Shown here in pieces: positions 3,274-37,715 of a stretch of DNA of 64,000 bases (its first letter is position 1; each line of letters starts with the position of its first letter). This DNA is from Streptomyces sp. NRRL WC-3618. GTDB lineage: Bacteria > Actinomycetota > Actinomycetes > Streptomycetales > Streptomycetaceae. The position numbers and the translations under genes are program-made. Below the pieces are notes generated by a model. The model did no database searches. It was not told the origin of the DNA and saw nothing but the letters and a program-made list of their open reading frames with translations. The stretch is taken from contig NZ_LGDW01000119.1 in NCBI RefSeq assembly GCF_001280005.1, positions 20,577 through 84,576 of the forward strand, in the 5' to 3' direction.

Positions 3274-4179
3274 GTGTTTCAGCAGGTTGCAGAGAATGTG
3301 AATCGTCCCAAGAGTGCGAGTATGTTGAGCTTCAGGCTTCTCGGGCCGTTGGAAATACGGGTCGGGGAGCGCGTGAGCAGGCTCGCCGGCGCAAGGCAGC
3401 GGACCCTGCTGGCCGTTCTGCTCGTCGACAGCGGACGGCTGCTCCCCGTCGAGCAGCTTTACGACGAACTGTGGGGCGAGACACCGCCGCCGACGGTGGG
3501 TAACTCCTTACAGGCGCACGTCTATCGGCTGAGGCGTACGCTCAATGAGCTGTCGGACAGTCCGGCGACCCGCCCCCGGCTGATCACCCGCCCCTCGGGC
3601 TACGTTCTGGAACTCAACGGGGCCACCGTCGACACGGATGCCTTCCAACGGTCGATCTCCCTGGCCCGCTCCCTCATGCACACCGATCCGGCCGCCGCCC
3701 ACGCCCTGTTCGAGGAGGCGCTGGAGCTCTGGCAGGGCGACCCGCTGCAGGACGTGGTCCAGGGACCGATGTGCCGCAGCGTCGCCCTCCAGTTGAAGGA
3801 GGAGTACCTCACCGCGGTCGAGGACAAGCTGTCGCTCGGCATCGACATCGCCGACCCGGTCCGCACCATCGGCGAGCTCAAGCGCATGAGCGTCGCCCAC
3901 CCCTGGCGCGAACGGATCACCGAACTCCTCATGCTCGCCCTCTACCGGGCGGGCCGTCAGGCGGAGGCGCTCGAGACCTACAACTGCGCCCGTCGTAGGC
4001 TCGTCGAGGAGCTGGGCATCGAACCCTCCATCCAACTGCGGCAGCGGCTGCGGGAGATCCTCAACCAGGTGCCCGGCGTGAGCGGTCATCTGAACGCGCA
4101 CAGGTCCAGAATCCCGGGGGCCGGCCACGATCAGTCGCTCGTGGTGCCGTCCGGCAGGATGCGGCCGAAGCCCGCGTAG
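3274..4179 (+). CDS. SARP-family transcriptional activator
   Basis: Streptomyces antibiotic regulatory protein of 301 residues, the usual length of a small SARP. An N-terminal winged helix ([13 protein letters not shown], then [30 protein letters not shown]) is followed by a bacterial transcriptional activator domain up to about residue 265. The GTG at 3274 is favoured by GGAG seven bases upstream; ATG at 3322 is the alternative. Codon 79 (3508-3510) is TTA, so translation probably depends on the bldA tRNA. Its predicted sites are the 11-bp-period TCAG heptamers listed here. The 3' end overlaps the convergent serS by 49 bases. The valanimycin cluster also has a SARP gene. Confidence 0.92.
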
Positions 4180-5411
4180 GGCACGAGAGCCTTGGGCAGC
4201 GCCACCGAACCGTCCGGCCGTACCCCCTGTTCGAGAAGCGCTGCCATCGTGCGTCCGATCGGCAGTGCGGAGCCGTTGAGTGTCACGACGGGTGATTTCC
4301 GGGAGCCCGGGCCGCGCAGGCGGATGCCGGCCCGCCTCGCCTGGAAGGTGCCGCAGTCGGACACCGAGGAGATCTCCCGGAAGGCGCCGCCGCCCGGCAT
4401 CCACACCTCGAGGTCGTATGTCATCCGGGCCGAGAAGCCGAGATCCCCGGCCGGCAGCAGCACCACCCTGTACGTCAGCTCCAACGCCCGTAGGCATTCC
4501 TCGACATGGCTGACCATCAGCTCCAGTTCCCGCCGCGCGTCGTCCGGCGCGCACAGCCGGACCAGTTCCACCTTCTCGAACTGGTGCAGCCGCAGGATGC
4601 CCCGGCTGTCTCGGCCGTAGGAACCCGCCTCGGCCCGGAAGCAGGGGGAGCGGGCGGTGACGGCGAGCGGCAGCTGCGCCGGGTCGAGCACCTCACCGGC
4701 GAACAGGTTCGTCAGCGGCACCTCGGCGGTGGGGATCAGCATGAGTTCCCGGTCGCCCACGCGCGTCGAGAACAGGTCCTCCTCGAACTTGGGTAGCTGC
4801 CCCGTGCCGGTCATCGTCTCCCGGGTCACCAGATACGGCACCGAGTACTCGGTGTAGTCGTGGGCGCCGGTGTGCAGGTCCAGGAAGAAGGCGGCCAGCG
4901 CCCGCTCCAGCCGGGCCCCGGCGCCGCGGGCCACCGAGAATCTGGCCCCGGACAGCCGGGCCGCGCGGTCGCCGTCCAGGATGCCCAGTGAGGCGCCGAC
5001 CGCCGCGTGATGACGGGCCTCGTCCGCCGCGGCCGGCGGCGGGCCGCACCGGCGCACCTCCACCGCCTCGGCCTCGGTGCGCCCGTCGGGGACTTCGTCC
5101 AGCGGGATGTTCGGAATCGTCAGCAGCAGGTCGGAGAGGCGTTCTCGGGCGTCCCTGGAACGCGCCTCGGCCCTCTGTACCCGTTCCCGCAACACCCGGG
5201 CCGCCGCCCGCCGTTCCTCCGGGACGACGTCCCGGCCGCCGCCCTTGGACGAGCGGTTGAGCTCCGCCCGCGCTCCGTCCATCTCCTCCGCCGCCGCGGT
5301 CCGCTCCCGGTACAGCGCCTCCAGCTCCTTCAGCCGCAGCGCGTAACCGCGCCGGGCGAGCCGGGCCACCGCATCCTCGCCCAGCGCCAGCAGCTCACGT
5401 GCATCGTGCAT
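4131..5411 (-). CDS. serS: Cluster-encoded seryl-tRNA synthetase
   Basis: Class II SerRS of 426 residues. The N-terminal helical arm that grips the tRNA-Ser variable arm (about residues 25-110) is followed by a catalytic core with TAEVPLTN, motif 2 ([15 protein letters not shown], then LHQFEKVEL) and motif 3 (NGSALPIGR). Motif 3 differs slightly from the usual NGSGLAVGR form. The start is ATG 5411; a longer frame exists but adds non-conserved residues. The gene is last in the leftward operon. A second SerRS in an azoxy cluster has a precedent in VlmL of valanimycin, where seryl-tRNA feeds a seryl transferase. Here it may charge the anticodon-less tRNA-Ser-like RNAs at 19059-19245 (inference). 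Confidence 0.95.
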
Positions 5412-5452: not shown

Positions 5453-6676
5453 TCAGGCCGCCGCGATGGCGAGTACGGCGTTCTGCCCGCCGAAGCCGAA
5501 GGAGTTGCACAGTGCCAGCTCGGCCCTCGTCGCGGTGGCGGTGGTCGCGACCTCGATGTCGAGCCGTGGATCGAGGCAGGACAGACCCGCCGTCGGGGGC
5601 ACCACTCCCTGTTCCAGGCTCAGCACCGTCAGCGCGGCCTCCACCGCCCCGGCCGCACCCAGCAGATGCCCGGTCACCCCCTTGGTGGAGGTGACCAGCG
5701 GGCTCCCGGTCAGCACCCGGCTCAGCATCTGTCCCTCGGCCAGGTCGTTGAGCGGGGTCGACGTGCCGTGGGCGTTGACATGGCCGACCTCCGACGCGGC
5801 GGCGCCGGCGTCCGCCAGGGCCGCCCGCACCGCCGACTCGGCGCCCACACCCTGGGGATGCGGGCTCGTCACGTGGTGGGCGTCGGCGCTCGCCCCGTAC
5901 CCCACCACCCGGCCCCTGACCCGGGCCGAGCGGGCGCGTGCGTCGGCGGCCCGCTCCAGCACCAGCACCCCGGCGCCCTCCGCGGCGACGAACCCGTCCC
6001 GCTCGACGTCGAAGGGCCGGGACGCGCTGTCCGGGTCGTGTTCCCGCGCGGACAGCGCGCCCATCTGCGCGAACCCGGCCATCACCAGCGGCGTGATCAT
6101 CGCCTCGCTGCCGCCGGCCAGCACGATGTCACAGCGGTCCAGCGTCAGCAGGTCCCGGGCGGTACCCACGGCAGTCGCGCCGGACGCGCAGGCGGTCGCC
6201 ACCACCAGATTGGGTCCCCTGGCCCCCAGCGCGATGGCGAGCTGCCCGGCCAGCATGTTCGGCAGTTGCATGGGGAGCAGCAGCGGCGAGACCCGGCGCG
6301 CCTCCTCGGTGATCAGCACCAGGTGCTGTTCCTCCACGGTGCCCGGCCCGCCGTCGGCCGACCCCATGACCACACCGACCCGGGCGCCGTCCCAGGTCGC
6401 CGGGTCCAACCCGGCGTCCGCCACCGCCTCCTGGGCCGCCACCAGAGCGAACTGCACGAACCGGTCCAGCCGCAGCGCCCGCCGGGCGCCGAGCAGGGCG
6501 TCGGCGTCGAACCCCGGCACCCGGCAGGACAGCCGTACGGAATTGCCTTCCAGCGTCGGGTCCAGGGCCGCCGTCGGCCGCCCCGCGAGCACCGCCGCCC
6601 AGGTGGCGGCGGTGCTCGTACCGGCCGGTGTCACCAGTCCCACACCGGTGACCGCGATGTCGGCACCGACGGTCAT
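5453..6676 (-). CDS. FabF-like beta-ketoacyl-ACP synthase (KAS II)
   Basis: Condensing enzyme of 407 residues with an intact catalytic triad: Cys163 in TACASGA, His303 in [11 protein letters not shown] and His337 in [12 protein letters not shown]. This is the FabF/KS-alpha type that elongates acyl-ACP with malonyl-ACP. Its ATG overlaps the ACP stop as ATGA (6673-6676), so the two are translationally coupled, and FabH-like KAS III lies just upstream. Together they form a dedicated fatty-chain-building set. The valanimycin cluster, as I recall it, uses a valine-derived amine, so this route is different. Chain length cannot be read from the sequence. Confidence 0.93.
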
Positions 6677-6903
6677 GCCGCGGCACTCCGCTCCTCCATC
6701 AGCCGGACCATGTCGCCGACGGTGGCCGCCTCCAGCAGCTCGTCGTCGCTGATGGTCAGCCCCAGCTCCTTCTCCAGCACGAGCGAGAGCTCCACCACAG
6801 CCAGCGAGTCCAGCTCGATGTCCTCCCGTGTGGCGTCGGGGGTGACGGTCTCCGGCGTCACCTTGAGCTTGCTGACGAGCATTTCCTTGAGGGTGTCGAA
6901 CAT
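6673..6903 (-). CDS. Acyl carrier protein
   Basis: Small acidic protein of 76 residues with the phosphopantetheine site LDSLAVVEL (Ser33) and the usual four-helix length. GGGAGAG precedes the ATG at 6903. It sits between the FabH-like and FabF-like genes and overlaps the latter, so it is the likely carrier for the growing acyl chain that later becomes the alkyl amine. A second free-standing ACP (24107) and the PKS-borne ACP suggest separate carriers for the two halves of the pathway. Confidence 0.93.
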   Translation of the reverse strand: MFDTLKEMLVSKLKVTPETVTPDATREDIELDSLAVVELSLVLEKELGLTISDDELLEAATVGDMVRLMEERSAAA

Positions 6904-6914
6904 GATCTCTCCCT

Positions 6915-6946
6915 TTGTCTGGTAAGTCGGTTGTCTGGTAAGTCGG
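6915..6946. repeat. 16-bp perfect tandem duplication
   Basis: TTGTCTGGTAAGTCGG occurs twice back to back (6915-6930 and 6931-6946), filling the space between the KAS III stop and the ACP ribosome site. It increases the intergenic distance in an operon whose other junctions mostly overlap. Confidence 0.9.
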
Positions 6947-7963
6947 TCATAGGGCCTTCACGTCGGGCCAGACCAGCGCGGTCGCCCCCCACGTGAGGCC
7001 GCCGCCGAACGCGGTCAGCAGCAGCCGGTGGCCGGCCGTCAGGGTGCCCTCGGCGGCGGCCTGCGCGAGCAGCACCGCGAGTGACGCCGCCCCGGTGTTG
7101 CCCACCCGCTCGATGTTGGACAGCCGTCGCTCGTGCGCGATGCCCAGGTCGTCGGCGACGGTGGCCAGGATGCGGGCGTTCGCCTGATGCGCGGCGAACC
7201 GGTCGGCCGCCGCCGGAGTGTCCCAGCCCGCCGCCTCGGCGGCCTGCCGGGACGAGGTGGTCATCCGTTCCACCGCGTGCCGGTACACCTCGCGTCCGGC
7301 CATCCGGAAGAACTCCTCGCCGGGCTCCGGCGCGACCCCCGAGGAGCGCTGCCGTGAGCCGCCCGCCGGTACCTGGATCAGTCGGTTCAGCCCGCCGTCG
7401 CTGCCCAGCACCACCCGGCCGACGGCGCCGGGCTCGCTCGCGTCCCCGGCCCGCAGGACGACGGCTCCGGCGCCGTCGGCGAAGATCACCGCGGTGCCGC
7501 GGTCCTGCGGATCGATGATCGTGGTGAACGCGTCGGCGGCGATCAGCAGCACCCGCTCGGCCGTGCCGGAGGCGATGAACCCGGCGGCCGCGGCGAGGCC
7601 GTACAGGAAGCCGCTGCACACCGCCGACACGTCGAACGCCGCGACACCGCCCAGCCCGAGCCGGTGGGCCACGTCCGGGGCGGTGGCCGGGCATGGCCGG
7701 TCGGGCGTGGTGGTGGCCAGCACGACGGCGTCCGCGCCGCCGCCGGCCGACTCCAGTGCGCGCCGGCCCGCCTCGACCGCCAGGTCGGAGGTGGCGACCC
7801 CGGGCGCGACCATGTGCCGGGTCGCGATCCCGGTCCGGGAGCGGATCCACTCGTCGGACGTCTCGAGGCGGCGGGTCAGTTCCTCGTTGGTCACCACGTC
7901 CGGCGGCAGGTGACACCCGATCCCGGCGATGACCGCCGCCCGCCCGCCGGACGCACCGCTCAT
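6947..7963 (-). CDS. FabH-like beta-ketoacyl-ACP synthase III
   Basis: KAS III-fold protein of 338 residues. The FabH triad is present: Cys116 (SAVCSGF), His259 (AAHQAN) and Asn289 (GNTGAASL). The N-terminal IAGIGCHLPPDVVTNEEL and the RTGI motif are typical of FabH. It would start the chain by joining an acyl-CoA to malonyl-ACP. The ATG at 7963 overlaps the stop of the diiron protein gene as ATGA. Longer upstream extension would intrude into that gene. The choice of starter unit (straight or branched) is unknown. Confidence 0.92.
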   Translation of the reverse strand: MSGASGGRAAVIAGIGCHLPPDVVTNEELTRRLETSDEWIRSRTGIATRHMVAPGVATSDLAVEAGRRALESAGGGADAVVLATTTPDRPCPATAPDVAHRLGLGGVAAFDVSAVCSGFLYGLAAAAGFIASGTAERVLLIAADAFTTIIDPQDRGTAVIFADGAGAVVLRAGDASEPGAVGRVVLGSDGGLNRLIQVPAGGSRQRSSGVAPEPGEEFFRMAGREVYRHAVERMTTSSRQAAEAAGWDTPAAADRFAAHQANARILATVADDLGIAHERRLSNIERVGNTGAASLAVLLAQAAAEGTLTAGHRLLLTAFGGGLTWGATALVWPDVKAL

Positions 7964-8967
7964 ACGGAGCCCCCGGTGCCGCCCAGCAGCTCCGGCGGCA
8001 GCCCCATGTACGCCATGCGGACCTCGGCCATCTGCTCGGTCCACCGCTCGGCCATGTCGTACCGCTGTTCGGGAGTGGTGTCGAGCATCCGTACGCCCGG
8101 CCAGATCTCGTAGTCGCCGATCCTGTCCGCGTGGGCGGCCATGCCCTCCTGGAAGAGCTTCTCGCGGTGGATCACGAACTCCCGGTCGGGGACCTCGTCC
8201 CACATCTTGACCCCGGCCTGGATGATCTCCACGATCCGGTCCCGGGACTCGGGGTGCGCGGCCAGATGGTCCTTCAGGATCGTGCTCGCCACCGTCAGAT
8301 GCCGGATCTCGTCGATCGCGGTGCCCCGGGAGATCTCGCCGGTCGCTGGGGAGAGCGGGGTCCACTTGCGCTCGCTCAGCTCGGCGGCGGGCGCCAGGAC
8401 GCCCTCGATGACGATGGCGAAGACGGCCACCCCGCCGGCGAAGTCCTGCTGCTCCCGCACGATCTCCAGGGTGAAGTCCACCACCGGCTGGAGCACCCGG
8501 GCGCGGTAGTCGGCGGAGAGTTCCGTCACGTCCCGCAGCAGGGTGTCGGCCGGCATGCCCAGCTCCACCAGGTGGTTGCGGAACACCCGGGCGTGCCGGG
8601 CCTCGTCGAGCAGTTGGGTCGCGTAGAACTCCATCTCCGGAATGCTCGGGGCGAGTTCGACGTACGGGGCGAGCAGCCGGGTGGCTATCTCCTCGGACAC
8701 GCCGCGGAAACCGAACTCCAGGATCAGCGCATCTCGCAGCGGACCGGGCTCCTTGAGGAAGTCCGGTACCCGCGCGTCCGCATGATGGCCTGTCACCCCT
8801 CGGTCACGCAGGGTGCCCTGGGCGACCGAGGTGATCCAGTACGGGAGGTCGCAGTCGGTCGGCCCGAGGGTCAGCTGCATGGCGCCGTCCAGGAGCCCGG
8901 GAGCGGCGTCCCAGTCGGCCTCCGGAGCGACGGCTGCCTCGGTCCGGGCCGTGTTGTCGATGCTCAC
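7960..8967 (-). CDS. vlmB-like: VlmB-type ferritin-like diiron azoxy synthase
   Basis: Protein of 335 residues with two carboxylate/histidine helices typical of ferritin-like diiron oxygenases: E-M-E-F...DEARH, and a later Glu followed by DEIRH. It matches the VlmB type from valanimycin, which is known as the nonheme diiron partner that turns a hydrazine into an azo and then an azoxy product. The start is GTG 8967, overlapping the flavin reductase stop as GTGA, with AAGGAGAAGGAG upstream; a longer frame from 9021 only reads back over the reductase. Its operon mates (membrane hydrazine synthase type, N-hydroxylase, flavin reductase) match that chemistry. Confidence 0.82.
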   Translation of the reverse strand: MSIDNTARTEAAVAPEADWDAAPGLLDGAMQLTLGPTDCDLPYWITSVAQGTLRDRGVTGHHADARVPDFLKEPGPLRDALILEFGFRGVSEEIATRLLAPYVELAPSIPEMEFYATQLLDEARHARVFRNHLVELGMPADTLLRDVTELSADYRARVLQPVVDFTLEIVREQQDFAGGVAVFAIVIEGVLAPAAELSERKWTPLSPATGEISRGTAIDEIRHLTVASTILKDHLAAHPESRDRIVEIIQAGVKMWDEVPDREFVIHREKLFQEGMAAHADRIGDYEIWPGVRMLDTTPEQRYDMAERWTEQMAEVRMAYMGLPPELLGGTGGSV

Positions 8968-9524
8968 AGTGCTGCTTTCTCCTTCTCCTTCGGATGGATC
9001 ACGGAAGAGTCCGGCACCCACGGCGCATGCGCCACGTCCCTCCGGGGCGCGCCGGCCACCAGCTCACCGGCGTAGCTGAGCAGCGGCGCCCCGGACGGGC
9101 CCACGTCCGCCCGGACCACGAGCCCCAGCAGGACCTCGTGGTCGCCGACCAGGAGGCTGCCGCGCACCCGACAGGCGTAGTGCGCCAACGCCCCTTCCAG
9201 CAGGGGTGCGCCCGAGTACCGGTCGCGCCGCCAGGCGAGACCGTCGAACTGCGCGGCGCCCGCCGGGCGGTCGCGATCGGCGAACCGCCTGGCCACCGAG
9301 TCCTGACCGCCGCTGAGTACGTTGACCGCGAACCGCCCCTCGACGAGCGCGAGGTGGACGAAGGACGAGCCCTCCTCAAGGCTCGCGGCGAGCAGTGGCG
9401 GCGCGTGCGACACCGTCGTCAGCGAGGACACCGTCGTCCCGTGCGTCCGCCCGTCATGACACACCGTCAGCACGGCGACCGGCGCCGCGAGCCGGTCCAC
9501 CACGGTGGCGAAGCCGGCGTTCAT
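8964..9524 (-). CDS. vlmR-like: Flavin reductase, VlmR type
   Basis: Protein of 186 residues of the short-chain flavin reductase (DIM6/NTAB, FMN-binding split barrel) family: VAVLTVCHDGRTHGTTVSS, then FAVNVLSGGQ and the closing YAGELVA. These enzymes use NAD(P)H to supply reduced flavin to a partner monooxygenase. The partner is most likely the acyl-CoA-dehydrogenase-like hydroxylase at 11910-13049, as VlmR serves VlmH. ATG 9524 overlaps the upstream membrane protein stop (ATGA). A second flavin reductase occurs at 35992 beside a luciferase-like enzyme. Confidence 0.85.
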   Translation of the reverse strand: MNAGFATVVDRLAAPVAVLTVCHDGRTHGTTVSSLTTVSHAPPLLAASLEEGSSFVHLALVEGRFAVNVLSGGQDSVARRFADRDRPAGAAQFDGLAWRRDRYSGAPLLEGALAHYACRVRGSLLVGDHEVLLGLVVRADVGPSGAPLLSYAGELVAGAPRRDVAHAPWVPDSSVIHPKEKEKAAL

Positions 9525-10051
9525 CGCACGACCCGTTGCGGCTCCCGGCGAGACGCCGGCAGGTGCCCCACGGGAACAGGGTCGCCTCCGTGGCCGACCG
9601 GTTTCGGGTGGGCGAGACCCAGGTCGTCCAGCAGCCGCAGATAGCCGTCCTGCCGCACCGGCTCGAAGGGCAGGGCGAACGACTTCATGAAGTTGCCGAA
9701 CAGGCCCCGGTCGCCGAACAGATGGAACGGGATGGCCAACAGCGCCCACTCCGGCCCGGCCAGCCAGCACCACAGGCCGATCACGATGCCCTGGGTGATC
9801 AGGCTGTGCATCACGTTGTAGAGGACGTAGTACGCCTTGTGGATGGGGCGGCCCTGGGCCCGCTTGAACGCGACGGCGCCCGGGATGTAGCCGATGAGGT
9901 CGATGTAGAGGAACAGCCCGACGAAGGGCAGCCATCGGATGTCTCCGAGGTGAGCGATGATCAGGCCCGTGGACACCGCGAAGCCGGCCAGGTATTCGGC
10001 GCGGTGCAGGGAGTAGGTCCGGGGGGTCTCGAACGGATTTGCCTGGTCCAT
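9521..10051 (-). CDS. vlmO-like: Small integral membrane protein, VlmO-type hydrazine synthase
   Basis: Protein of 176 residues with about four hydrophobic helices (roughly 21-36, 39-62, 78-97 and 100-112) and histidines at 16, 34, 71, 82 and 110 that could bind metal. In valanimycin biosynthesis a small membrane metalloprotein (VlmO) rearranges the seryl hydroxylamine ester to a hydrazine and works with the diiron VlmB. The size, membrane nature and position next to the VlmB-type and flavin reductase genes fit this role. The assignment leans on context and general resemblance, since no alignment could be run. The stop overlaps the flavin reductase start. Confidence 0.65.
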   Translation of the reverse strand: MDQANPFETPRTYSLHRAEYLAGFAVSTGLIIAHLGDIRWLPFVGLFLYIDLIGYIPGAVAFKRAQGRPIHKAYYVLYNVMHSLITQGIVIGLWCWLAGPEWALLAIPFHLFGDRGLFGNFMKSFALPFEPVRQDGYLRLLDDLGLAHPKPVGHGGDPVPVGHLPASRREPQRVVR

Positions 10052-10067
10052 GACGTTTTGCCTCCTG

Positions 10068-10541
10068 TCATGCGGTGGCGGGCACGCCGGGCTGCTCGCC
10101 GACGACCTCGCTGTCGGGGAACATCCCGGTGACGGCCCAGGCGACGGTCTCCCTGATGACCCGCTCGGCGATCGGGTCGAGGATGCCTTCGAGGCTCGGG
10201 ATGCCGAAGTCGAACTCGGCGACGAAGCGCACGGTCACGTCAGCGCCGTCCTGCGCGATCCGCCAGGCGCCCTGGAAGGAGTCGAAGTCGCCGTCCATCT
10301 GCTCGAAGCGGATCTCCAGGGTCTCGGTGCAGAAGACGTCCCGCTCCGTCCAGCGCAACAGGCCGCTGCGGAAGTGCAGTTCCCAGCTGGAGGAGCAGTC
10401 GGGGTCGGGGTGGGTGGCGTGCACGGTGGTGGCCTCCACGTGCGGGGCCAGTTCGGGGAAGCGCTCCCAGCGCCGTACGGCGTGGAAGACGCTCTCGGCG
10501 CTCTCCGCGCGCACCAGCGCCTCAAGGGTTACCTCTCGCAC
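10068..10541 (-). CDS. SRPBCC (START-like) cyclase-family protein
   Basis: Protein of 157 residues beginning MREVTLEALVRAESAESVFHAV and having the layout of the SRPBCC hydrophobic-pocket fold (polyketide cyclase/coenzyme Q-binding type): an early VFHAVRRWERFPELAPHV segment, a central beta-rich part with W-R-I-A, and a long C-terminal helix. The start is GTG 10541, just six bases before the aminotransferase stop at 10547. It may hold a hydrophobic pathway intermediate such as the unstable seryl hydroxylamine or hydrazine (inference from its place beside the membrane protein). Confidence 0.75.
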   Translation of the reverse strand: MREVTLEALVRAESAESVFHAVRRWERFPELAPHVEATTVHATHPDPDCSSSWELHFRSGLLRWTERDVFCTETLEIRFEQMDGDFDSFQGAWRIAQDGADVTVRFVAEFDFGIPSLEGILDPIAERVIRETVAWAVTGMFPDSEVVGEQPGVPATA

Positions 10542-11909: not shown

Positions 11910-13049
11910 TCATGACAGCTCCAGGGACCCGCCTGTGAACCACTTCAGCAGCGGCTCGGCGGCCGAAGCCCGGCCCGGGGGATGGAAGGCGAGGGGCCGT
12001 ACGGAGTCGGCGAGCCGGGTGTGCTCGCCGCCCCGGATGAAGTCGATGCCGCCCAGCAGCTCCAGTGCCTGGTCGGCGGCCCGGACGAGGGCCTCCTGGG
12101 CGGCGTACCTGGCGACCAGCACCGCCGCCACCGCCGGCTCACCGGCCAGCCCGTCCTGTACGGCCCGCGCGGCGCCCTCCAGCAGGGCGAACGCCGACTC
12201 CACGCCGACCGCGAGCGCGGCACGCTCACCGGCGCTGCCGCGCTCCCGCTCCAGCACGGTGGCGACGAGGGCCGTCGCGGCGCCCGCGTAACCCGCGGAG
12301 ATCAGCAGCTCGAACCAGATGAACCCGGTCGTCTGCAGGTCGTCCAGCAGATGCGGAGCCTCCGGCACGGTGCGTACCACCAGCTCCTCCGGGACGAACA
12401 CATCGGTCAGCCGGACCTCGTCGCTCTCCGCTCCCGCGAGCACCTCGTTGCCCCAGAACGGGTGCACCGAGATGCCGGGGGAGTCGGCCGGCAGCAGGGC
12501 CAGCGCGAGCTCCGGGGCGCCGTCGGCGCCGGGGACCGCGATGCTCGCGGTGAGCAGGTCCATGGAACGCGCCAGGCTGCACGGCTTCTTGACGCCGTTC
12601 AGCACAAAGCCGCCCTCGGCCGCGGTGGCCGTCACGGACGGGATCAGGATGTTCTGCTGGGTACGGCCTTCCGCCCAGCCGGAGGCGAGCAGCAGCCGCT
12701 CCGGGGCTATGCCGTGCAACACCTTCGCCTGAGCGGGCGTCAGTCGCCCGGAGCCGGCGGCCATTTCGAACAGCATGGCGACGGTGAAGTGGTGCATCGC
12801 GGCCGCCGCGGCGAGCGAGGGCGACACCGAGCCCACCGCACGCTGCACCCGGATCGCGTCCAAGGCGCCGGCGCCCCGCCCGCCGTGGTTCTCGGGGACC
12901 AGCAGACCCGCGCCGCCGTGCTCGCGCAGCAGCGCGGTCACGGGGGAGCCGGGTGCCTCGCGCTCGGCGAAGGGGAGGGCCTCCAGTGCCGTGAGGAGGC
13001 CGGGATGGTGGCGTTCGCACACCTCTCGGGCGTGACTGAGGGATCGCAT
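11910..13049 (-). CDS. vlmH-like: Acyl-CoA dehydrogenase-like amine N-hydroxylase, VlmH type
   Basis: Flavoprotein of 379 residues with the acyl-CoA dehydrogenase fold: N-terminal helices with LLREHGGAGLLVPENHGG, a central beta domain (FVLNGVKKPCSLARSMDLL) and C-terminal helices ending DQALELLGGIDFIRG. VlmH of valanimycin, isobutylamine N-hydroxylase, is a two-component flavin monooxygenase of this superfamily and uses VlmR as reductase; a VlmR-type gene is in the same operon. A true acyl-CoA dehydrogenase is the alternative, but the azoxy context favours amine hydroxylation. The ATG at 13049 is preceded by a GGGAG-type ribosome site. Confidence 0.8.
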   Translation of the reverse strand: MRSLSHAREVCERHHPGLLTALEALPFAEREAPGSPVTALLREHGGAGLLVPENHGGRGAGALDAIRVQRAVGSVSPSLAAAAAMHHFTVAMLFEMAAGSGRLTPAQAKVLHGIAPERLLLASGWAEGRTQQNILIPSVTATAAEGGFVLNGVKKPCSLARSMDLLTASIAVPGADGAPELALALLPADSPGISVHPFWGNEVLAGAESDEVRLTDVFVPEELVVRTVPEAPHLLDDLQTTGFIWFELLISAGYAGAATALVATVLERERGSAGERAALAVGVESAFALLEGAARAVQDGLAGEPAVAAVLVARYAAQEALVRAADQALELLGGIDFIRGGEHTRLADSVRPLAFHPPGRASAAEPLLKWFTGGSLELS

Positions 13050-13088: not shown

Positions 13089-14714
13089 TCAGGAACCGAA
13101 GACCGCCTCGTGCGGGCTGACGTCCCGCGCGATGCTCACGCCCTGGAGATGCGAGGTCTTGAGCATCGGGTAGTTGGCCTCGCCGAACGCGCCGCCGGTG
13201 AGCCCGGTTCCGCCGTGGCTGGGCAGGTACGGCAGGAAGCCGATGTGCGAGTCGTTGATCTTCAGCAGGCCGCCGTTGCCGATCCGGCGCACCACTGTGT
13301 CGATGACCTCGGGCGAGTCCGCCCACAGTGAGTTGCGCAGGCCGTACTCGTTGGAGTTGACGAAGTCGATCATCCGTTCCAGGAGCTCGTCGTCGGTGCC
13401 CGCCTCGGGCACGACCACGGGCAGCAGCGGGAAGAACGTCTCGTCGCGGACGACGTCGTACTTTCGGGCCTCGGTCAGCCCCTCCACCCGCAGCACCGTC
13501 GGCTGGAGGAAGACGCCCGTGTCGGAGGGGGTGCCGTCCACCTCGGCCCGGCTGCCGCCGGTGACCAGCTCGGCGCCCCGGTCCAGGGCCTGCTGGAGCA
13601 GCGTGAAGAACCGCTCGCTGCGCCGCACCGGCGACAGCAGCACCTCCGGGTCCTCCGGATAGCCGGGCCGGATCGCCGCCGCTCGCTTGCTGACCTCCTC
13701 GATCAGCCGGTCGGCGATCGCCGGGTGCGCGAGTACGTAGTTGGGCACCATGCATATCTGCCCGGAGCCGTAGAACGCCTCCGCGATCGCCTCACCGGCC
13801 CGGACCGGGTCGGCGTCCCGCCACACCACGATGCCGTCGTTGCCCGCCAGTTCCAGGATCGGCTTCTTGCCGCGCGCCACGCACTGTTCCTGGAAACGCA
13901 GGCCCTCCTGGCTGCCGCCGATGTAGAAGATGTCGTCGATCAGCGGATCCTCCAGCCAGCGGTCCAGCGTCTGCCGGGGATTCGCGCAGATCGCGTTGAG
14001 CACCCCGGGCGGCGCGCCCACCTTCTCCAGCAGTGGCGCCACCACGTCTCGGATGAGCCACATCGTGCTGAGAGCGATACTGCGCGGCGCCCGCACCACC
14101 ACGGCGTTGCCCGCCATCACCGCCAGCACCGCCAGGGCGGCGCTGGGGGCGGGTGCGTTCTGCGGCGGGTTGAAGGCGACCACGCCGTCCGGCTGCCGCC
14201 GCACGATGAGCCGCCGCGGACCGTGCTGGAACTCCGTGTGCATCTGCTGCCGGTACCAGCCGAGGCTCTCCTCGCTGTACACCTGGAGCAGACAGCTCAG
14301 CTCCCACCGGGCGAGCTTGACCGGGTGGCCCTCCACCATCAGCATCTCGGTGAACTCGTCCTGCCGGCGCAGGAGTTCCTCCCGGAACAGGGTGCCCAGC
14401 CGCATCCGCTCGTCCAGCGGCACAGCCGCCCACGCGGGAGCCGCGGCCGCCGCGGCGGTGGTCGCCCGGTCGATGTCCGAGTCGCTCGCGACAGCGCACC
14501 GGCCCGCCACATACGGATGACCCGCGGCCTCGGACTCCGGATGCCGCTCCAGCTCACGCTTCAGGCTGACGCTCGTGAAAACGTCCTCCAAAAGAGAACG
14601 TGAGCTGACCGTGTACACCCACTGATCGCTCTCGACATCCTCGCCGCCAATGTAGAGCTGGTAGCTGCGGATTTCTGATGTATGCATCGACCGCCCCATA
14701 GATTGCGTCTCCAT
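13089..14714 (-). CDS. Aldehyde dehydrogenase-family protein, possible acyl reductase
   Basis: ALDH-superfamily protein of 541 residues. The catalytic Cys321 lies in GSGQICMVPN and Glu288 in ILELAGND. A long N-terminal extension (about 65 residues) precedes the usual core. Working in reverse on an acyl thioester or acid, it could provide the fatty aldehyde needed by the neighbouring aminotransferase; simple aldehyde oxidation is the alternative. It is the first gene of the leftward operon that runs to serS and is preceded by the four-heptamer SARP site at 14769-14808. ATG 14714 has AAGGAA upstream; an ATG at 14687 is also possible. Confidence 0.82.
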   Translation of the reverse strand: METQSMGRSMHTSEIRSYQLYIGGEDVESDQWVYTVSSRSLLEDVFTSVSLKRELERHPESEAAGHPYVAGRCAVASDSDIDRATTAAAAAAPAWAAVPLDERMRLGTLFREELLRRQDEFTEMLMVEGHPVKLARWELSCLLQVYSEESLGWYRQQMHTEFQHGPRRLIVRRQPDGVVAFNPPQNAPAPSAALAVLAVMAGNAVVVRAPRSIALSTMWLIRDVVAPLLEKVGAPPGVLNAICANPRQTLDRWLEDPLIDDIFYIGGSQEGLRFQEQCVARGKKPILELAGNDGIVVWRDADPVRAGEAIAEAFYGSGQICMVPNYVLAHPAIADRLIEEVSKRAAAIRPGYPEDPEVLLSPVRRSERFFTLLQQALDRGAELVTGGSRAEVDGTPSDTGVFLQPTVLRVEGLTEARKYDVVRDETFFPLLPVVVPEAGTDDELLERMIDFVNSNEYGLRNSLWADSPEVIDTVVRRIGNGGLLKINDSHIGFLPYLPSHGGTGLTGGAFGEANYPMLKTSHLQGVSIARDVSPHEAVFGS

Positions 14715-14768: not shown

Positions 14769-14808
14769 CTGATACGGAACTGACGTGGGGCTGACCCTGT
14801 TCTGACAT
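14769..14808 (-). promoter_or_regulatory. SARP operator A: four TCAG heptamers, leftward operon
   Basis: Read toward the leftward operon: ATGTCAG, GGGTCAG, ACGTCAG, GTATCAG, starting every 11 bp with 4-bp spacers. Nine bases beyond the last heptamer is TAAGAC, a fair -10, matching the SARP habit of binding direct repeats just upstream of -10. The divergent VlmA-type gene starts 62 bp to the right and could share the site. Confidence 0.88.
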
Positions 14809-14869: not shown

Positions 14870-15850
14870 ATGACCGAGACACTTCTGCACGCCATAAGGA
14901 ACTGGACCGAGGCAGAAAACCCCAGTGCTTTTCTCGCGATGAACGACGACAAGGAGGTCTTCACCCTGCCCGGCGCAGAAGGAGTCGTGCTGCACCGGCA
15001 GGCCGGCCGGTATCTGGTGCAGTTCGGGGGCCCGTTCGCGCCGCCCGACTCCTACGACTCGCTGCTGGACGCCTTCCTCGCCCACGCCCGCCGACAGGGG
15101 CTTCGTGTGGTGGGTGTGCAGTTGCAGCGCTCCGACGCCGAGGCCTATGTCCGGCACGGCTTCACCGTCAACCAGATCGGCGCTTCCTGGGCCGTGCGGC
15201 TGCCTGAATTCAGCCTGCGCGGTACGAAGTTCATGCAGCTGCGAAACAAGATCTCCCGGGCCCTGCGCAACGGGCTGAAGGTCCAGGAGGTCGAGGCCGG
15301 GCGCTGGCAGCACGCCATCGAGCACATCGACTCGGCCTGGCTGAAATCGAAGGGAGAGAGCGCCCGTCCGCTGGAGTTCCTCGTCGGCCAGATCGGCGGC
15401 CCCGCGCAGGAACACCGCCGTCTCTTCCTCGGCACGATCGACGACGAACCGGTCGCCTACATCTCCTACTGCCCGGTCTACGGCAGCCGCGCGGGCTGGA
15501 TGCACGACCTCAGCCGCCGGCTGCCGGGCGGCTCTCCCGGCCTGATGGAAGCCGTCAACGCGGCGGCGATCGAGATCTTCCGGGGTGAGGGAACGCCGTG
15601 GCTGCACTTCGGCTTCACTCCCTTCACCGGGCTCGACCCCGCCAGCGAGCTCCCGGGCCACAGCCCGGCCTTCAGCTGGCTGATGCAGTTCCTGTGGGCC
15701 GAGGGCGGCGCGTTGTACCCGGCGCAGACCCAGCTCGCCTACAAGGAGAAATGGGGGCCCGAGCTGGTGATCCCCGAGTACGTGGCCTTCGAGGGGCAGG
15801 CCTCGCTGCCGTCCTTCGCGCACATCTTCCGCGCCTGCAACTCCTTCTGA
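14870..15850 (+). CDS. vlmA-like: Seryl transferase, VlmA type (DUF2156)
   Basis: Protein of 326 residues beginning MTETLLHAIRNWTEAENPSAFLAM, with the doubled acetyltransferase-like fold of the DUF2156/aminoacyl-tRNA-dependent transferase group (FMQLRNKISRALRNGLKVQEV, then SAWLKSKGE, later GWMHDLSRRLPGG and LMEAVNAAAIEIFR). VlmA of valanimycin moves serine from seryl-tRNA onto an alkyl hydroxylamine, and MprF-like lysyl transferases share the domain. It is thus the expected consumer of seryl-RNA in this cluster. The ATG has no recognisable Shine-Dalgarno sequence, suggesting a leaderless or unusual start. It diverges from the leftward operon across operator A. Confidence 0.85.
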   Translation: MTETLLHAIRNWTEAENPSAFLAMNDDKEVFTLPGAEGVVLHRQAGRYLVQFGGPFAPPDSYDSLLDAFLAHARRQGLRVVGVQLQRSDAEAYVRHGFTVNQIGASWAVRLPEFSLRGTKFMQLRNKISRALRNGLKVQEVEAGRWQHAIEHIDSAWLKSKGESARPLEFLVGQIGGPAQEHRRLFLGTIDDEPVAYISYCPVYGSRAGWMHDLSRRLPGGSPGLMEAVNAAAIEIFRGEGTPWLHFGFTPFTGLDPASELPGHSPAFSWLMQFLWAEGGALYPAQTQLAYKEKWGPELVIPEYVAFEGQASLPSFAHIFRACNSF

Positions 15851-15901: not shown

Positions 15902-16111
15902 ATGTCCATCGAGACGACGACCACGGAGACGACGACCACGGAGACGACGACCACCGCGGCGACGAAGAGGAGTACCGACGAACTGCGCCACTCCGTGGTG
16001 GAGTTCCTGATGGCCGTCATCGGCGCCCCGGACGACGAGGAGATCGCCCGCACCGCGGACGACGCGGTCCGCGTGCTGGACGCCCGGCTCAGCGAAGAGC
16101 GGCAGGGCTGA
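15902..16111 (+). CDS. Small Thr-rich-leader helical protein
   Basis: Predicted 69-residue protein with GGGAG before the ATG. Its first 20 residues are a TTTTE repeat (three 15-bp units of GAGACGACGACCACG type), followed by a short predicted helical domain (RHSVVEFLMAVIGAPDDEEIARTADDAVRVLDARL). I do not recognise the family. It lies 51 bases after the VlmA-type gene and before a strong terminator, so it is probably co-transcribed. A helper of the transferase is possible but unproven. Confidence 0.65.
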   Translation: MSIETTTTETTTTETTTTAATKRSTDELRHSVVEFLMAVIGAPDDEEIARTADDAVRVLDARLSEERQG

Positions 16112-18917: not shown

Positions 18918-18946
18918 CTGATATCCAACTGACTGTGCCCTGACGG
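18918..18946 (-). promoter_or_regulatory. SARP operator B: desaturase promoter
   Basis: Read leftward: CCGTCAG, CAGTCAG, ATATCAG with an exact 11-bp period and 4-bp spacers, pointing at the desaturase gene. A TACTCG element follows about six bases after the last heptamer. Confidence 0.85.
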
Positions 18947-18961
18947 AGATATTCCGAAAGA

Positions 18962-18990
18962 TCGTCAGAGAGATATCAGCAGCGTGTCAG
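18962..18990 (+). promoter_or_regulatory. SARP operator C: tRNA-like/kinase promoter
   Basis: Read rightward: TCGTCAG, ATATCAG, GTGTCAG with 11-bp period. Eight bases later comes TGCAGAGT, a possible -10. Transcription would begin about 45-55 bases before the first tRNA-like gene and continue into the kinase and MmgE/PrpD genes. It lies back to back with operator B. Confidence 0.86.
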
Positions 18991-19058
18991 AGGACTGCTG
19001 CAGAGTTGTACTCGAGAACGGCGCCGGAGAGTGCGAACTCACCGGAACCGGAATCGCT

Positions 19059-19150
19059 GGAGAGGTGCCCGGAGTGGTTATCGGGGATCGGGATTCGTCT
19101 CGGTCGGGTGGTTTTGCCCGCCTGCGCAGGTTCGAATCCTGCCCTCTCCG
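19059..19150 (+). ncRNA. tRNA-Ser-like RNA without an anticodon, copy 1
   Basis: This 92-nt element folds as a class II tRNA: a perfect 7-bp acceptor (GGAGAGG with CCTCTCC) and discriminator G; D arm CCCG/CGGG with GG in the loop; variable arm GGGTGG/CCGCCT; and a perfect T arm GCAGG-TTCGAAT-CCTGC. The serine identity features known from E. coli are present: G73, G2-C71, A3-U70, a purine-pyrimidine pair 4-69, C11-G24 and the long variable arm. The anticodon arm is replaced by GATCGGGA-TTCG-TCTCGGTC, an 8-bp stem with a UUCG tetraloop, leaving no 7-base loop. SerRS does not read the anticodon, so charging is plausible while decoding is not. CCA is not encoded. Likely role: seryl donor to the VlmA-type transferase (inference). 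Confidence 0.85.
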
Positions 19151-19153
19151 CTT

Positions 19154-19245
19154 GGAGAGGTGCCCGGAGTGGTTATCGGGGGCCGGGATTCGTCTCGGTC
19201 GGGTGGTTTTGCCCGCCTGCGCAGGTTCGAATCCTGCCCTCTCCG
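19154..19245 (+). ncRNA. tRNA-Ser-like RNA without an anticodon, copy 2
   Basis: Second copy, three bases after the first (95-bp pitch). It is identical over 92 nt except for two adjacent changes in the 5' strand of the anticodon-replacement hairpin (GATCGGGA becomes GGCCGGGA). There an A-U pair becomes G-U and a U-G pair becomes C-G, so the 8-bp UUCG hairpin is kept. Acceptor, D, variable and T arms are unchanged. It precedes the kinase start by 60 bases in the same transcript from operator C, so maturation by the normal tRNA end-processing enzymes is expected. No standard anticodon reading fits serine. Confidence 0.85.
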
Positions 19246-19305
19246 CTCGTCTACCGCAGTGCTGTCCGTTCCATCGGCATCCCCATCGACTTCCGGAGAG
19301 TTTCC

Positions 19306-20295
19306 ATGACCGAGGAGTCCCAGGCGCTCGTTCGGAGCGTGCTCGTCGTCGCCAACCCCGCTGCCGGAACCACGAGCGATCGGCTCACGGCAGACGTCCT
19401 CGCCGAGTGCGCGAACCGCGCGGCCGACGTGCGCCTGTACCGCACCACCGGTCGAGGCGACGCCACCGCGGCGGTGAGCGCGGCCCGTTCGGAAACCGTC
19501 GGGCACCGCGTGCCCGACCTGGTGGTGGCGGTCGGCGGCGACGGCACGGTGCACGAGGTGGTCGCCGGTCTCGTCGCCCAGGGTCCCGCGGCCCGCCCCG
19601 CACTGGCCATCGTGCCGGCGGGCACCGGCAACTCCGGCTACAAGATGCTCTGGTCGGACCGCCCCTGGCGGACGGCGCTCACCGCTGTCCTCGACGGCCC
19701 CCGCCACGGCGCCCGACTGCGCCGCATCGACCTCGCCCACCTCACGGAGACCGGCGCGAAGGTGTTCCTCGGCGCCTGTTCCGGCGTCATCGCCGACGCC
19801 CTGAGGGTGGCGCGGTCGGTGCCGCAGAGTGGCCGCGACCGCTACACCACGGCCTTCGCCGATGCTGCCGCCGCCTTCACGCCGTATCCCGGCCGGGTCA
19901 CCGTCGACGGCACGCCTCTGTACGAGGGGCCCACCGTGCTCGCCAACGTCGGCGGCGGGCGCTTCCGCGGCGGGCGCTACCAGGTGCTGCCGCACTCGGA
20001 ACTGGACGACGGCCTGCTCGACGTCTGCGTCATCGGCTCGCCCATATCCCCCGCCGAGGTCCCTGAACTCACCCGACGCGCCGCCCACCTCGGTCTGCCC
20101 GGCGTCCACTACGGCCGCGGCCGGCGCATCGTCGTGGAGCGCCTCGACGGCGTACCCCTGTGCTTCGAGCACGACGGCAACCTCCAGCCTCCCGACCTGG
20201 CCCGGCTCACCTTCGAGGTGTTGCCCGGCGCCCTCCCGGTATGGGGCGCCGACACCGCCGTACTCGCCGCCCCGGCGGCCGAGGCGCGGGCGTGA
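19306..20295 (+). CDS. vlmJ-like: Diacylglycerol kinase-like kinase, VlmJ type
   Basis: Protein of 329 residues of the DAGK catalytic family: VLVVANPAAG at the N terminus, the nucleotide loop VAVGGDGTVHEV (GGDGT at 77-81) and AIVPAGTGNSGYKML. In valanimycin, VlmJ of this family phosphorylates the hydroxyl of valanimycin hydrate, so VlmK can eliminate it. The same two-gene order is present here, with a GTGA overlap. GGAG precedes ATG 19306. It is cotranscribed with the tRNA-like genes. A longer frame reading through those RNA genes is spurious. Confidence 0.87.
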   Translation: MTEESQALVRSVLVVANPAAGTTSDRLTADVLAECANRAADVRLYRTTGRGDATAAVSAARSETVGHRVPDLVVAVGGDGTVHEVVAGLVAQGPAARPALAIVPAGTGNSGYKMLWSDRPWRTALTAVLDGPRHGARLRRIDLAHLTETGAKVFLGACSGVIADALRVARSVPQSGRDRYTTAFADAAAAFTPYPGRVTVDGTPLYEGPTVLANVGGGRFRGGRYQVLPHSELDDGLLDVCVIGSPISPAEVPELTRRAAHLGLPGVHYGRGRRIVVERLDGVPLCFEHDGNLQPPDLARLTFEVLPGALPVWGADTAVLAAPAAEARA

Positions 20296-21806
20296 CGCTC
20301 CTGGAGGAACTGTGCGCGTGGGCGGCCCGGTTGACGTACGACGACATCCCGGACCGGGTCCGTGCGCTGGCCGCCAGCCAGGTCCTGTCCCAGGTCGCGT
20401 CCATCAGAGCCGGAGCCGTCCACCCGCTGGGCGGCCGCATGATCGCCGCGTTCGGTGAGCCGTTCCAGCCCGACGCCCGGCAGGCCGCCTGTGTGCTGGC
20501 CGGACTCGGCTCGTGGCTCAACCTCGACGACACCGCGTACGCCGGACACCTCTCCAACTCGACGGTTGCCGTCCCCCTCGCGTTCGCCCACGCCCGCCGG
20601 CTGACCGGCGCCGCGCTGCTCACGGCGGTGGTCGCCGCCAACGAGTGCGCGGCCCGCGTCACCGCCGCCGCGACCCTCGGACCGCTGCGCGGACAGAGCG
20701 CGGTCCACACCCATCTGGTGGGCGCCGTCTGCGGACGGCTGCACTGCGAGGGCGTCAAGGATCCCAGGCGGTGGGCGGACGCCCTGGGCCTGGCCCTCGC
20801 CATGCCGCACCGGCCGCTGATGCGGGCGTTCCTGGCCAGCGACGCCCGGCTCCTGAACGCCTTCGCCCCGGTGCGGGCCGGCATGGACGCCTGCGACGCC
20901 GCCACCGCCGGACTGCGCGGCGCACCGGATCTCCTGGAACACCCCGACGGCTTTCTCGCCGCGCTGGCCACGGTGCCGCTGCCCGACGAGGTCACCGACG
21001 GCCTCGGCCGGCGCTGGCACACCGACACGCTGTCCTTCAAGATGCGCCCCGGCGGCCCCGGCATCGACGCGGCCGTGGACTGCGCCATCGACCTCCACCG
21101 CGAACTGCGGTCGGACGTCGGCCGGTCGGCCCCGCCCGTCGACCCGGCTTCGGTGGCGGAGGTACTGGTGGAGACATCCCTGTACACCCTGTACGCGGGC
21201 CGCCGTGCCGACCGCTACGTCACCGGCCCCGACGCACCCCTGGGCGCACTGGTGCTGCACACGCCCTACCCGGTCGCCACGGCGCTGCTCACCGGTGGCC
21301 TGACGGTCGCCGACTTCGAGCGGCCCGCCCTGGCGGACCCGGCCCGCTGGCAGCTGGCGCAGCGGGTCCGGCTCGCTCACGACCCCGCCCTCACCCGGGA
21401 ACTGTTCGCGTCCGCCGCGCCTTTCGGCGCCGCGGTCCGCCGGGCGGGAGCCGCCGCAGAGCCCTGGCTGTTCGACTTCGGCGGCTCCGAGACCGCCCGC
21501 ATGGCACTCGACGCGGCCGAGCCGCCCGAGCCCGACTTCACGGCCGCCACCAAGGCGACCGGCGCCCGCGTCACCGTACGCCTGCGTGACGGCCGCGCGT
21601 TCACCCGTGAACGGCTCGTCCCCCTGGGCGCCGCCGGCCCGCACACCCGGGCCTGTCACGACGAGCTGGTCCGGGAGAAGTTCGTGTCCCTCGGTGGTGA
21701 CGTGGACACCGCGAAGGCCGCTGTCGAGCTCGGCGCGATGGGCGCTGTCCGACTGCGCGACTGGCTGCACGCGGCACTCGCCGTCCAGCGGCCCGCGCCG
21801 AGGTAA
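20292..21806 (+). CDS. vlmK-like: MmgE/PrpD-family eliminase, VlmK type
   Basis: Protein of 504 residues of the MmgE/PrpD (2-methylcitrate dehydratase / aconitate decarboxylase-like) family: all-helical N-terminal domain with GLGSWLNLDDTAYAGHLSNSTVAVPLAFAHA, then TLSFKMRPGGPGIDAAVDCAID, and a C-terminal domain with TVRLRDGRAFTRE. The valanimycin protein VlmK acts after VlmJ to remove phosphate and create the double bond. GTG 20292 overlaps the kinase stop. Its presence suggests the serine-derived part ends as a dehydro or vinyl unit (inference). A G/C-rich terminator follows. Confidence 0.83.
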   Translation: MTLLEELCAWAARLTYDDIPDRVRALAASQVLSQVASIRAGAVHPLGGRMIAAFGEPFQPDARQAACVLAGLGSWLNLDDTAYAGHLSNSTVAVPLAFAHARRLTGAALLTAVVAANECAARVTAAATLGPLRGQSAVHTHLVGAVCGRLHCEGVKDPRRWADALGLALAMPHRPLMRAFLASDARLLNAFAPVRAGMDACDAATAGLRGAPDLLEHPDGFLAALATVPLPDEVTDGLGRRWHTDTLSFKMRPGGPGIDAAVDCAIDLHRELRSDVGRSAPPVDPASVAEVLVETSLYTLYAGRRADRYVTGPDAPLGALVLHTPYPVATALLTGGLTVADFERPALADPARWQLAQRVRLAHDPALTRELFASAAPFGAAVRRAGAAAEPWLFDFGGSETARMALDAAEPPEPDFTAATKATGARVTVRLRDGRAFTRERLVPLGAAGPHTRACHDELVREKFVSLGGDVDTAKAAVELGAMGAVRLRDWLHAALAVQRPAPR

Positions 21807-32117: not shown

Positions 32118-32146
32118 CTGACCGGAGACTGAGCGGCGACTGACGC
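32118..32146 (-). promoter_or_regulatory. SARP operator E: monooxygenase promoter
   Basis: Read leftward: GCGTCAG, CGCTCAG, CGGTCAG with 11-bp period, inside the 63-bp gap between the hotdog thioesterase stop and the monooxygenase start. Confidence 0.82.
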
Positions 32147-37686: not shown

Positions 37687-37715
37687 CTGACGCGCGACTG
37701 ACCTGCGCCTGAGAG
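37687..37715 (-). promoter_or_regulatory. SARP operator G: LLM oxidase promoter
   Basis: Read leftward: CTCTCAG, AGGTCAG, GCGTCAG with 11-bp period. It is the rightmost operator found and lies just before the mobile-element remnants, so it marks the cluster border. Confidence 0.84.

Follow-up and report, generated by a model that had tools for sequence, protein, structure and literature searches.

The window analysed here is a stretch of 64,000 nucleotides from Streptomyces sp. NRRL WC-3618, in which genes were called by our own script and domains were assigned with Pfam and NCBIfam. Homologues of VlmA, VlmH, VlmB and VlmO were found together, as in azoxy (vlm-type) clusters, VlmO being recognised solely from its position and its homologues. 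For VlmA, B, H, J, K and O the naming follows passages of PMC9379638 and PMC11705231 and the annotation of relatives. The features of the cluster are as follows:

3322–4179, plus strand: SARP-family activator (BTAD; Pfam)
4131–5411, minus strand: second, cluster-encoded SerRS, VlmL-like (Pfam; NCBIfam serS above cut-off)
7960–8967, minus strand: VlmB-like diiron oxygenase (weak AurF match under the cut-off; 57–58% identity to proteins annotated as VlmB-like)
8964–9524, minus strand: flavin reductase, VlmR-like by position (32–50% identity to same-place proteins in related clusters)
9521–10051, minus strand: VlmO-like protein (position and azoxy-cluster homologues; 54–62% identity to the same-place protein in loci L218 and L219)
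11910–13049, minus strand: VlmH-like acyl-CoA-dehydrogenase-type N-hydroxylase (Pfam; homologues)
14769–14806, minus strand: RTCAG array towards the biosynthetic operon starting at 14699 (array scan)
14939–15850, plus strand: VlmA-like aminoacyl-tRNA-dependent transferase (LPG_synthase_C; Pfam; alignment A1)
18918–18944, minus strand: RTCAG array, divergent, towards the desaturase gene (array scan)
18964–18990, plus strand: three 11-bp-spaced RTCAG repeats, predicted SARP-type site of the RNA promoter (array scan)
19001–19006, plus strand: −10-like hexamer CAGAGT, 10 nt past the last repeat (sequence)
19059–19150, plus strand: tRNA-Ser-like RNA, copy 1, from acceptor to discriminator G73 (family model R1, 82.9 bits)
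19086–19105, plus strand: 8-bp UUCG hairpin in the place of the anticodon arm, copy 1 (fold)
19154–19245, plus strand: tRNA-Ser-like RNA, copy 2 (family model R1, 83.3 bits)
19181–19200, plus strand: 8-bp UUCG hairpin in the place of the anticodon arm, copy 2 (fold; two pairing-neutral changes)
19306–20295, plus strand: VlmJ-like kinase (DAGK_cat/YegS_C; Pfam), 60 nt past RNA copy 2
20292–21806, plus strand: VlmK-like MmgE/PrpD dehydratase (Pfam)

An aminotransferase gene lies between the VlmO-like and VlmH-like genes and a desaturase gene between the VlmA-like gene and the RNA pair. Homology to VlmA starts at about 14867, ahead of the called start, and the true start is probably upstream of 14939. 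Two same-place relatives of the 8964–9524 product are annotated as flavin reductase; for the VlmO-like protein no Pfam match was found. Behind VlmA, at 15902–16111, lies a small ORF of 69 amino acids which by eye is like a short ORF recurring near VlmA of relatives (a BLAST cluster from 7 loci) and which had no NCBIfam match. The other SerRS of the strain is only 38% identical to the cluster SerRS. A preliminary description of this DNA had read the pair as non-decoding RNAs that could be charged with serine and serve an azoxy cluster, and the computational tests support this reading; Pfam found genes for a SerRS and for a VlmA-like transferase within the cluster.

Each RNA measures 92 nt up to the discriminator G73, which is followed by a C, and 3 nt separate the tandem copies. 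The MFE folds of both are full cloverleafs with a 7-bp acceptor stem, a D stem, a 6-bp variable arm and a 5-bp T stem, in which an 8-bp hairpin closed by UUCG occupies the position of the anticodon arm. This bears out the preliminary description, which had noted two 92-nt copies with the acceptor, D, long variable and T arms of a tRNA-Ser, a TTCG-closed 8-bp stem in place of the anticodon arm and, as the sole differences between the copies, two changes within this stem that keep pairing (A-U to G-U and U-G to C-G). The fold z-scores were −2.1 and −2.2 for copies 1 and 2 (5/200 and 3/200 shuffles were as stable or better); the centroid fold of copy 2 is the cloverleaf, that of copy 1 deviates from it. 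ARAGORN reported tRNA-??? at 19059–19151 and 19154–19246, with a usable anticodon absent. A whole-genome scan with the Rfam tRNA model listed copy 1 with 33.8 bits (cut-off 29) without copy 2, and a faster Rfam scan of the window reported neither. The family covariance model R1 recovered both at 83 bits and, since 142 distinct family elements were collected as well, the pair is not a product of chance.

Cloverleaf, 7-bp acceptor stem, 5-bp T stem and long variable arm are those of a tRNA-Ser; the 5-bp anticodon stem, 7-nt loop, U33 and serine anticodon of a translational tRNA-Ser were not found in either copy. The strain has five ordinary tRNA-Ser genes (anticodons GCU, UGA twice, CGA and GGA) with acceptor stems that differ from that of the pair, and therefore the two RNAs are not its working serine tRNAs. 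Neither do they look like tmRNA: they are 92 nt long, have A3-U70 and G73 and no tag frame, and ARAGORN called no tmRNA. According to passages of PMC9976931, bacterial serine identity resides in G73, C72, G2-C71, R4-Y69, C11-G24 and a large variable arm, in addition in G30-C40, and is independent of the anticodon. Compared with the set given there, the RNAs keep all elements outside the anticodon arm (G1-C72, G2-C71, R4-Y69, C11-G24, G73 and the large variable arm), as is needed for the earlier suggestion that a SerRS could charge them; G30-C40 has no counterpart because the anticodon arm is replaced.

Members and structure of the RNA family

The covariance model R1 found both copies and family members in other actinobacterial genomes. 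A total of 165 elements were extracted at 136 loci, including some places fetched twice, and 142 of the elements, the window pair included, are distinct. Scanning one genome per species with a sequence pattern gave at least 119 stretches; among the 80 matches listed, judged by their titles, Actinobacteria were found throughout (Streptomyces, Kitasatospora, Streptacidiphilus, Embleya, Salinispora, Actinokineospora and Saccharothrix, plus two MAGs). Relatives were present in 14 Streptomyces records in a DNA similarity search of plasmids, and blastn over 61 genomes (the strain's own included) matched 7, G010 and G020 only by a 22-base piece of the T arm. R1 was run on the same 61 genomes with stricter filters and 70 candidates scored per genome, so that weak members may escape, and gave family members at 82.9 bits or more. 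Its remaining matches (E up to 1e-6) were five genes of 49–57 bits in five other genera, which were rejected as family members when checking identified them as ordinary tRNA-Ser genes. A phage origin was rejected as well: 3 of 50,697 phage records gave partial matches, covering 29–37% of the query at the T-arm end.

The two RNAs are part of a wide actinobacterial family of tRNA-Ser-like RNAs with a variable hairpin for the anticodon arm. The proposal that the RNA serves an azoxy cluster held insofar as homologues were found in related azoxy clusters, but the RNA is not peculiar to the cluster of the window, since the family is widespread and has dispersed copies too. A feature confined to azoxy clusters was thus rejected, as copies also lie far from the cluster.

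Because the search pattern prescribed the acceptor and T arms, their invariance among the collected elements is not evidence; the hairpin, variable arm and D-stem pair 13-25 are free of this bias. Constrained MFE folds, computed with acceptor, D and T stems imposed, had two hairpins, the replacement hairpin and the variable arm, between D and T arms in 142/142 distinct elements. The loop of the first hairpin has 4 nt in 76 elements, 5 nt in 34, 3 nt in 22, 6 nt in 5, 8 nt in 3 and 7 nt in 2. A full 5-bp stem with a 7-nt loop and U33 beside the D stem was found in 0/142 elements, as against 5/5 of the strain's ordinary tRNA-Ser used as control; a full 5-7-5 arm without U33 is possible in 5/142 and one with U33 and 4/5 pairs likewise in 5/142. 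In 56 diverse representatives (set A2) the proposed structure was paired in 97.1% of cells, compared to 35–60% with the partners slid, and 44 cells had changes on both sides, compared to a shuffle mean of 10.7. Seven pairs had a both-side change (4.4 in shuffles; 6/500 shuffles reach 7). Three of the four outer pairs of the replacement hairpin changed on both sides (88.4% of cells paired, 11.6% fail), as did 3/5 variable-arm pairs (94.6% of cells paired). The replacement hairpin varies in sequence and mostly keeps its pairing, and the RNA structure is under selection.

A fourth D-stem pair, 13-25, is possible in 142/142 elements (G-C in 134, A-U in 8), whereas the strain's own tRNA-Ser, read by eye, have three, a 3-bp form that the family RNAs do not fit; the D arm is therefore a second family-specific feature. 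One extra base ahead of A14 was also read by eye in the D arm of the family. A C directly follows G73 in 165/165 elements.

Promoters, VlmA and a second SerRS

The repeats upstream of the RNA pair are spaced by 11 bp and followed by a −10 element, and a SARP gene lies in the cluster; shuffling predicts 0.25 matches to such an array over the whole window. Passages of PMC10972967 describe the layout of SARP sites and report that the SARP VlmI has sites upstream of vlmJ as well as ahead of vlmA-vlmH. The region upstream of the RNA fits these described sites, and activation by a SARP is predicted. A similar array faces a downstream PKS-like gene (named by eye) in the window. Two more RTCAG arrays, both on the minus strand, lie outside the core cluster at 32118–32144 and 37687–37702, which suggests a regulon that may extend to roughly 38 kb in the window.

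The same layout recurs across the family. In 154 distinct 120-nt upstream regions GTCAG was found in 128 (16.9 in shuffles) and RTCAG pairs at 10–12 or 22 bp in 121 (0.12 in shuffles). The −10-like hexamer stands exactly 10 nt past the last RTCAG in 105 of the 127 upstream regions that have one, the other spacings from 4 to 19 occurring at most 4 times each. An 11-bp repeat pair is present at 33/57 loci with a cluster gene in view and at 75/86 loci without one, and therefore the dispersed copies share the switch.

VlmA-like genes are the commonest neighbour family, found at 29 of the 126 gene-called loci at a median distance of 187 bp and divergent in 24/29; SARP-like genes occur at 25/126. 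At 97/126 loci no VlmA gene is present in the DNA fetched, which spans up to 8 kb (20 kb at eight plasmid loci), and, therefore, most copies of the RNA are not beside VlmA. A strong VlmA-like gene (474–624 bits) was nonetheless present in 20/20 RNA-bearing genomes searched; VlmA near the RNA was already known in 6 of these (G000, G035, G062, G069, G072 and G073) and not in the other 14. Among 61 related genomes the RNA was found in 5 and VlmA in 8, all 5 RNA genomes being among the 8, and 53/56 RNA-less genomes had no VlmA. The chance of this overlap, C(8,5)/C(61,5), is about 1 in 100,000 with relatedness ignored. The three genomes that have VlmA without the RNA are G001 (79% complete), G007 and G034, and no SerRS, VlmJ or VlmK homologue was found in the 12–20 kb around their VlmA genes (contig-limited in G001). 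The strain of the window itself has a second azoxy-type VlmA locus (G000 C269:57948-58919, L226), around which 20 kb were read and neither the RNA nor a homologue of SerRS, VlmJ or VlmK was found. Since VlmA occurs without the RNA at these loci, the RNA is not needed by all VlmA enzymes.

Plasmids gave a similar picture. Among 72,556 plasmids, 11 encode VlmA with at least 55% identity and all 11 carry the RNA, about seven of them being independent since near-identical plasmids are included; three RNA plasmids have no VlmA match. None of the 8 plasmid records with VlmA-like proteins below 45% identity was among the RNA plasmids, and no such RNA was found within 15 kb of the VlmA-like plasmid loci of Paraburkholderia (44.6%) and Embleya (38.6%).

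A SerRS 58–100% identical to that of the window was found in 16/20 RNA genomes, besides one or two with 37–42% identity, whose alignments start at residue 16–68 and so do not cover the whole of the N-terminal domain that binds tRNA. The window-type SerRS is encoded on the VlmA contig in 14/16, about 4 kb from VlmA in G003, G061 and G065. It is missing in G035, G026, G072 and G074, in which the ordinary SerRS would have to charge the RNA. The RNA thus occurs together with VlmA, as expected of a dedicated aminoacyl donor for a GNAT-type transferase.

A likely serine carrier for azoxy biosynthesis

The RNA pair, as members of this widespread family, likely provide azoxy biosynthesis with a dedicated serine carrier that does not decode. 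The SARP activator would turn on the RNA along with the cluster, as the observed promoter layout suggests, and RNase P and the CCA enzyme would be expected to mature the transcript. Charging would then fall to the cluster SerRS or, in genomes that lack a second SerRS, to the housekeeping enzyme; the RNA would be chargeable without an anticodon because serine identity does not use it. The VlmA-like transferase would take serine from the RNA to form an O-seryl hydroxylamine ester, which would lead to the azoxy group. Once it has given up its serine, the RNA would have no means of decoding, which would keep the serine pool of the pathway apart from translation, and in many genomes dispersed copies under like promoters would supply the carrier in trans. 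The family probably represents a class of carrier tRNAs that lost decoding, has a private SerRS and promoter code and trans-acting chromosomal satellites, and delivers serine to a metabolic enzyme only. Passages of PMC12945691 and PMC11705231 describe that VlmA takes serine from Ser-tRNA, the former naming a hydroxylamine as acceptor. In published assays VlmA worked with Ser-tRNA-Ser. An ordinary tRNA can therefore serve VlmA, and this activity is the strongest point against a necessity of the RNA.

SARP-type promoters and dispersed copies would also suit a trans-acting regulatory RNA or decoy, which would be produced along with the antibiotic and, rather than donate an acyl group, titrate SerRS, RNase P or some other protein that binds tRNA, or signal serine status; indeed, a Bacillus cereus pseudo-tRNA is reported, in passages of PMC3399842, to reside within a larger regulatory RNA. 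Such a molecule, however, has no need for serine identity elements or for the C after G73, nor for the tight tracking of VlmA and the second SerRS, and the hairpin has no conserved sequence usable as a target-binding site. We regard a decoy as unlikely.

The number of RNA copies varies from 1 to 15 in 15 named genomes, S. griseofuscus and Kitasatospora MBT63 each having 15, and on the NBC_01766 plasmid a stretch of about 16 kb holds repeated, near-identical cassettes of promoter and RNA. High copy number and repeated cassettes could point to decaying tRNA-Ser genes or to tRNA-derived repeats acting as selfish elements or integration sites. This is very unlikely in view of the compensating pair changes in the arms, the conserved promoters and the tracking of a biosynthetic enzyme; moreover, the five ordinary tRNA-Ser of the strain differ in the acceptor stem, and no neighbour family is common to most of the dispersed loci (by BLAST grouping, with neighbours mostly unnamed).

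In the window the RNA follows a SARP-type promoter and precedes VlmJ by 60 nt, and no terminator was seen by eye in between, as would be the case if a tRNA-like fold had become a leader or attenuator acting in cis on the VlmJ operon. The downstream gene differs by locus, however (VlmJ, VlmA, SARP, aldehyde dehydrogenase or unshared genes), and copies persist far off where the RNA adjacent to VlmA was lost. The RNA is inside the 1.5-kb VlmA flank at 10/20 VlmA loci, and among the remaining ten there are six (G033, G061, G065, G067, G068 and G070) in which the repeats are kept beside VlmA and the adjacent RNA is gone, with an apparent decayed 3' remnant in G061 and G065. The VlmA contig is without an RNA copy in 5/6 such genomes, and in G061 the nearest copy is more than 1.8 Mb off. 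All six retain VlmA, the second SerRS and 4–15 RNA copies elsewhere. Because these genomes keep VlmA with copies only elsewhere, the RNA is probably diffusible rather than a cis leader and very probably acts in trans, which leaves the leader most improbable.

Bacterial alanine identity resides in G3-U70 and A73 according to passages of PMC9976931, and the RNA has A3-U70 and G73 instead. On the NBC_01766 plasmid (L014) an annotated alanine–tRNA ligase gene (6189–8843) is located about 1.2 kb from the RNA at 10004–10090. This copy could speak for a carrier dedicated to another residue or enzyme, such as alanine in an azodyrecin-type or non-azoxy pathway, but this is extremely unlikely, given the missing alanine pair set, the VlmA on the same plasmid and the lack of the RNA at those VlmA loci that were read without a nearby SerRS homologue.

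Some enzymes are known to draw on the aminoacyl-tRNA of translation, and how cells stop such side pathways from draining the translational pool is, to our knowledge, an open question. If the serine carrier is real, it provides a clean answer, an anticodon-stripped tRNA that usually comes with its own synthetase and switch, and it would mean a second, insulated aminoacyl-RNA economy beside translation, with a transfer RNA kept purely for metabolism; SerRS and RNA may then be a natural orthogonal pair. In staphylococcal wall synthesis a non-translational tRNA-Gly, which keeps its anticodon arm, is the amino-acid donor for a FemX-type transferase. Like this tRNA-Gly, the RNA described here would be a tRNA-derived RNA reserved as amino-acid donor, but it has a hairpin instead of the arm and usually comes with a second synthetase and a SARP-type promoter. 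With tmRNA it has in common a tRNA-like, predicted chargeable and anticodon-less form, whereas tmRNA carries alanine and an mRNA part and works on ribosomes and the family RNA has neither mRNA part nor alanine signature. The tRNA-Other of Bacillus cereus is likewise a tRNA-like RNA outside translation but, according to passages of PMC3399842, it bears a Trp anticodon, is a poor substrate for charging in vitro and belongs to a larger regulatory RNA, whereas the family RNA is anticodon-less. Like tRNA-Sec, described in passages of PMC7609411 as charged by SerRS and set apart from tRNA-Ser by arm changes, the RNA is predicted to be charged by SerRS; tRNA-Sec keeps its anticodon and decodes, whereas here the decoding arm is replaced.

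The valanimycin system (VlmA and the SerRS VlmL) and the window have homologues of VlmA, VlmH, VlmB, SerRS, VlmJ, VlmK and SARP in common. The valanimycin literature consulted names Ser-tRNA or Ser-tRNA-Ser as donor; in or near the cluster of the window, and likewise the valanimycin-like plasmid cluster L219, lies an anticodon-less RNA that is probably dedicated to the pathway. No description of such an RNA was found in the literature searched, which is weak evidence of absence as most subscription journals and bioRxiv preprints lie outside its coverage; the main text of the review PMC12945691 gave no match for tRNA gene, dedicated or anticodon.

If the carrier role holds, the family RNA could be used as a marker for finding seryl-type azoxy clusters, with the warning that a tRNA finder overlooks its genes or assigns them to many different amino acids: ARAGORN gave some anticodon to 66 of the 142 distinct elements, over 16 labels (Ser in 6, 15 other labels in 60), called 35 "???" and missed 41. 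RefSeq locus-tag numbers jump at the RNA positions in L013, L016, L017, L018, L019 and L215, which suggests that the RNA is annotated there as some RNA gene and was omitted from the plasmid table. In G010 and G020 (L006 and L007) a class I tRNA-like gene at 1495–1569, ARAGORN tRNA-??? with a four-base anticodon (ctga), has 22 T-arm and acceptor bases in common with the RNA of the window; it is possibly an expanded-anticodon tRNA or a pseudo-tRNA.
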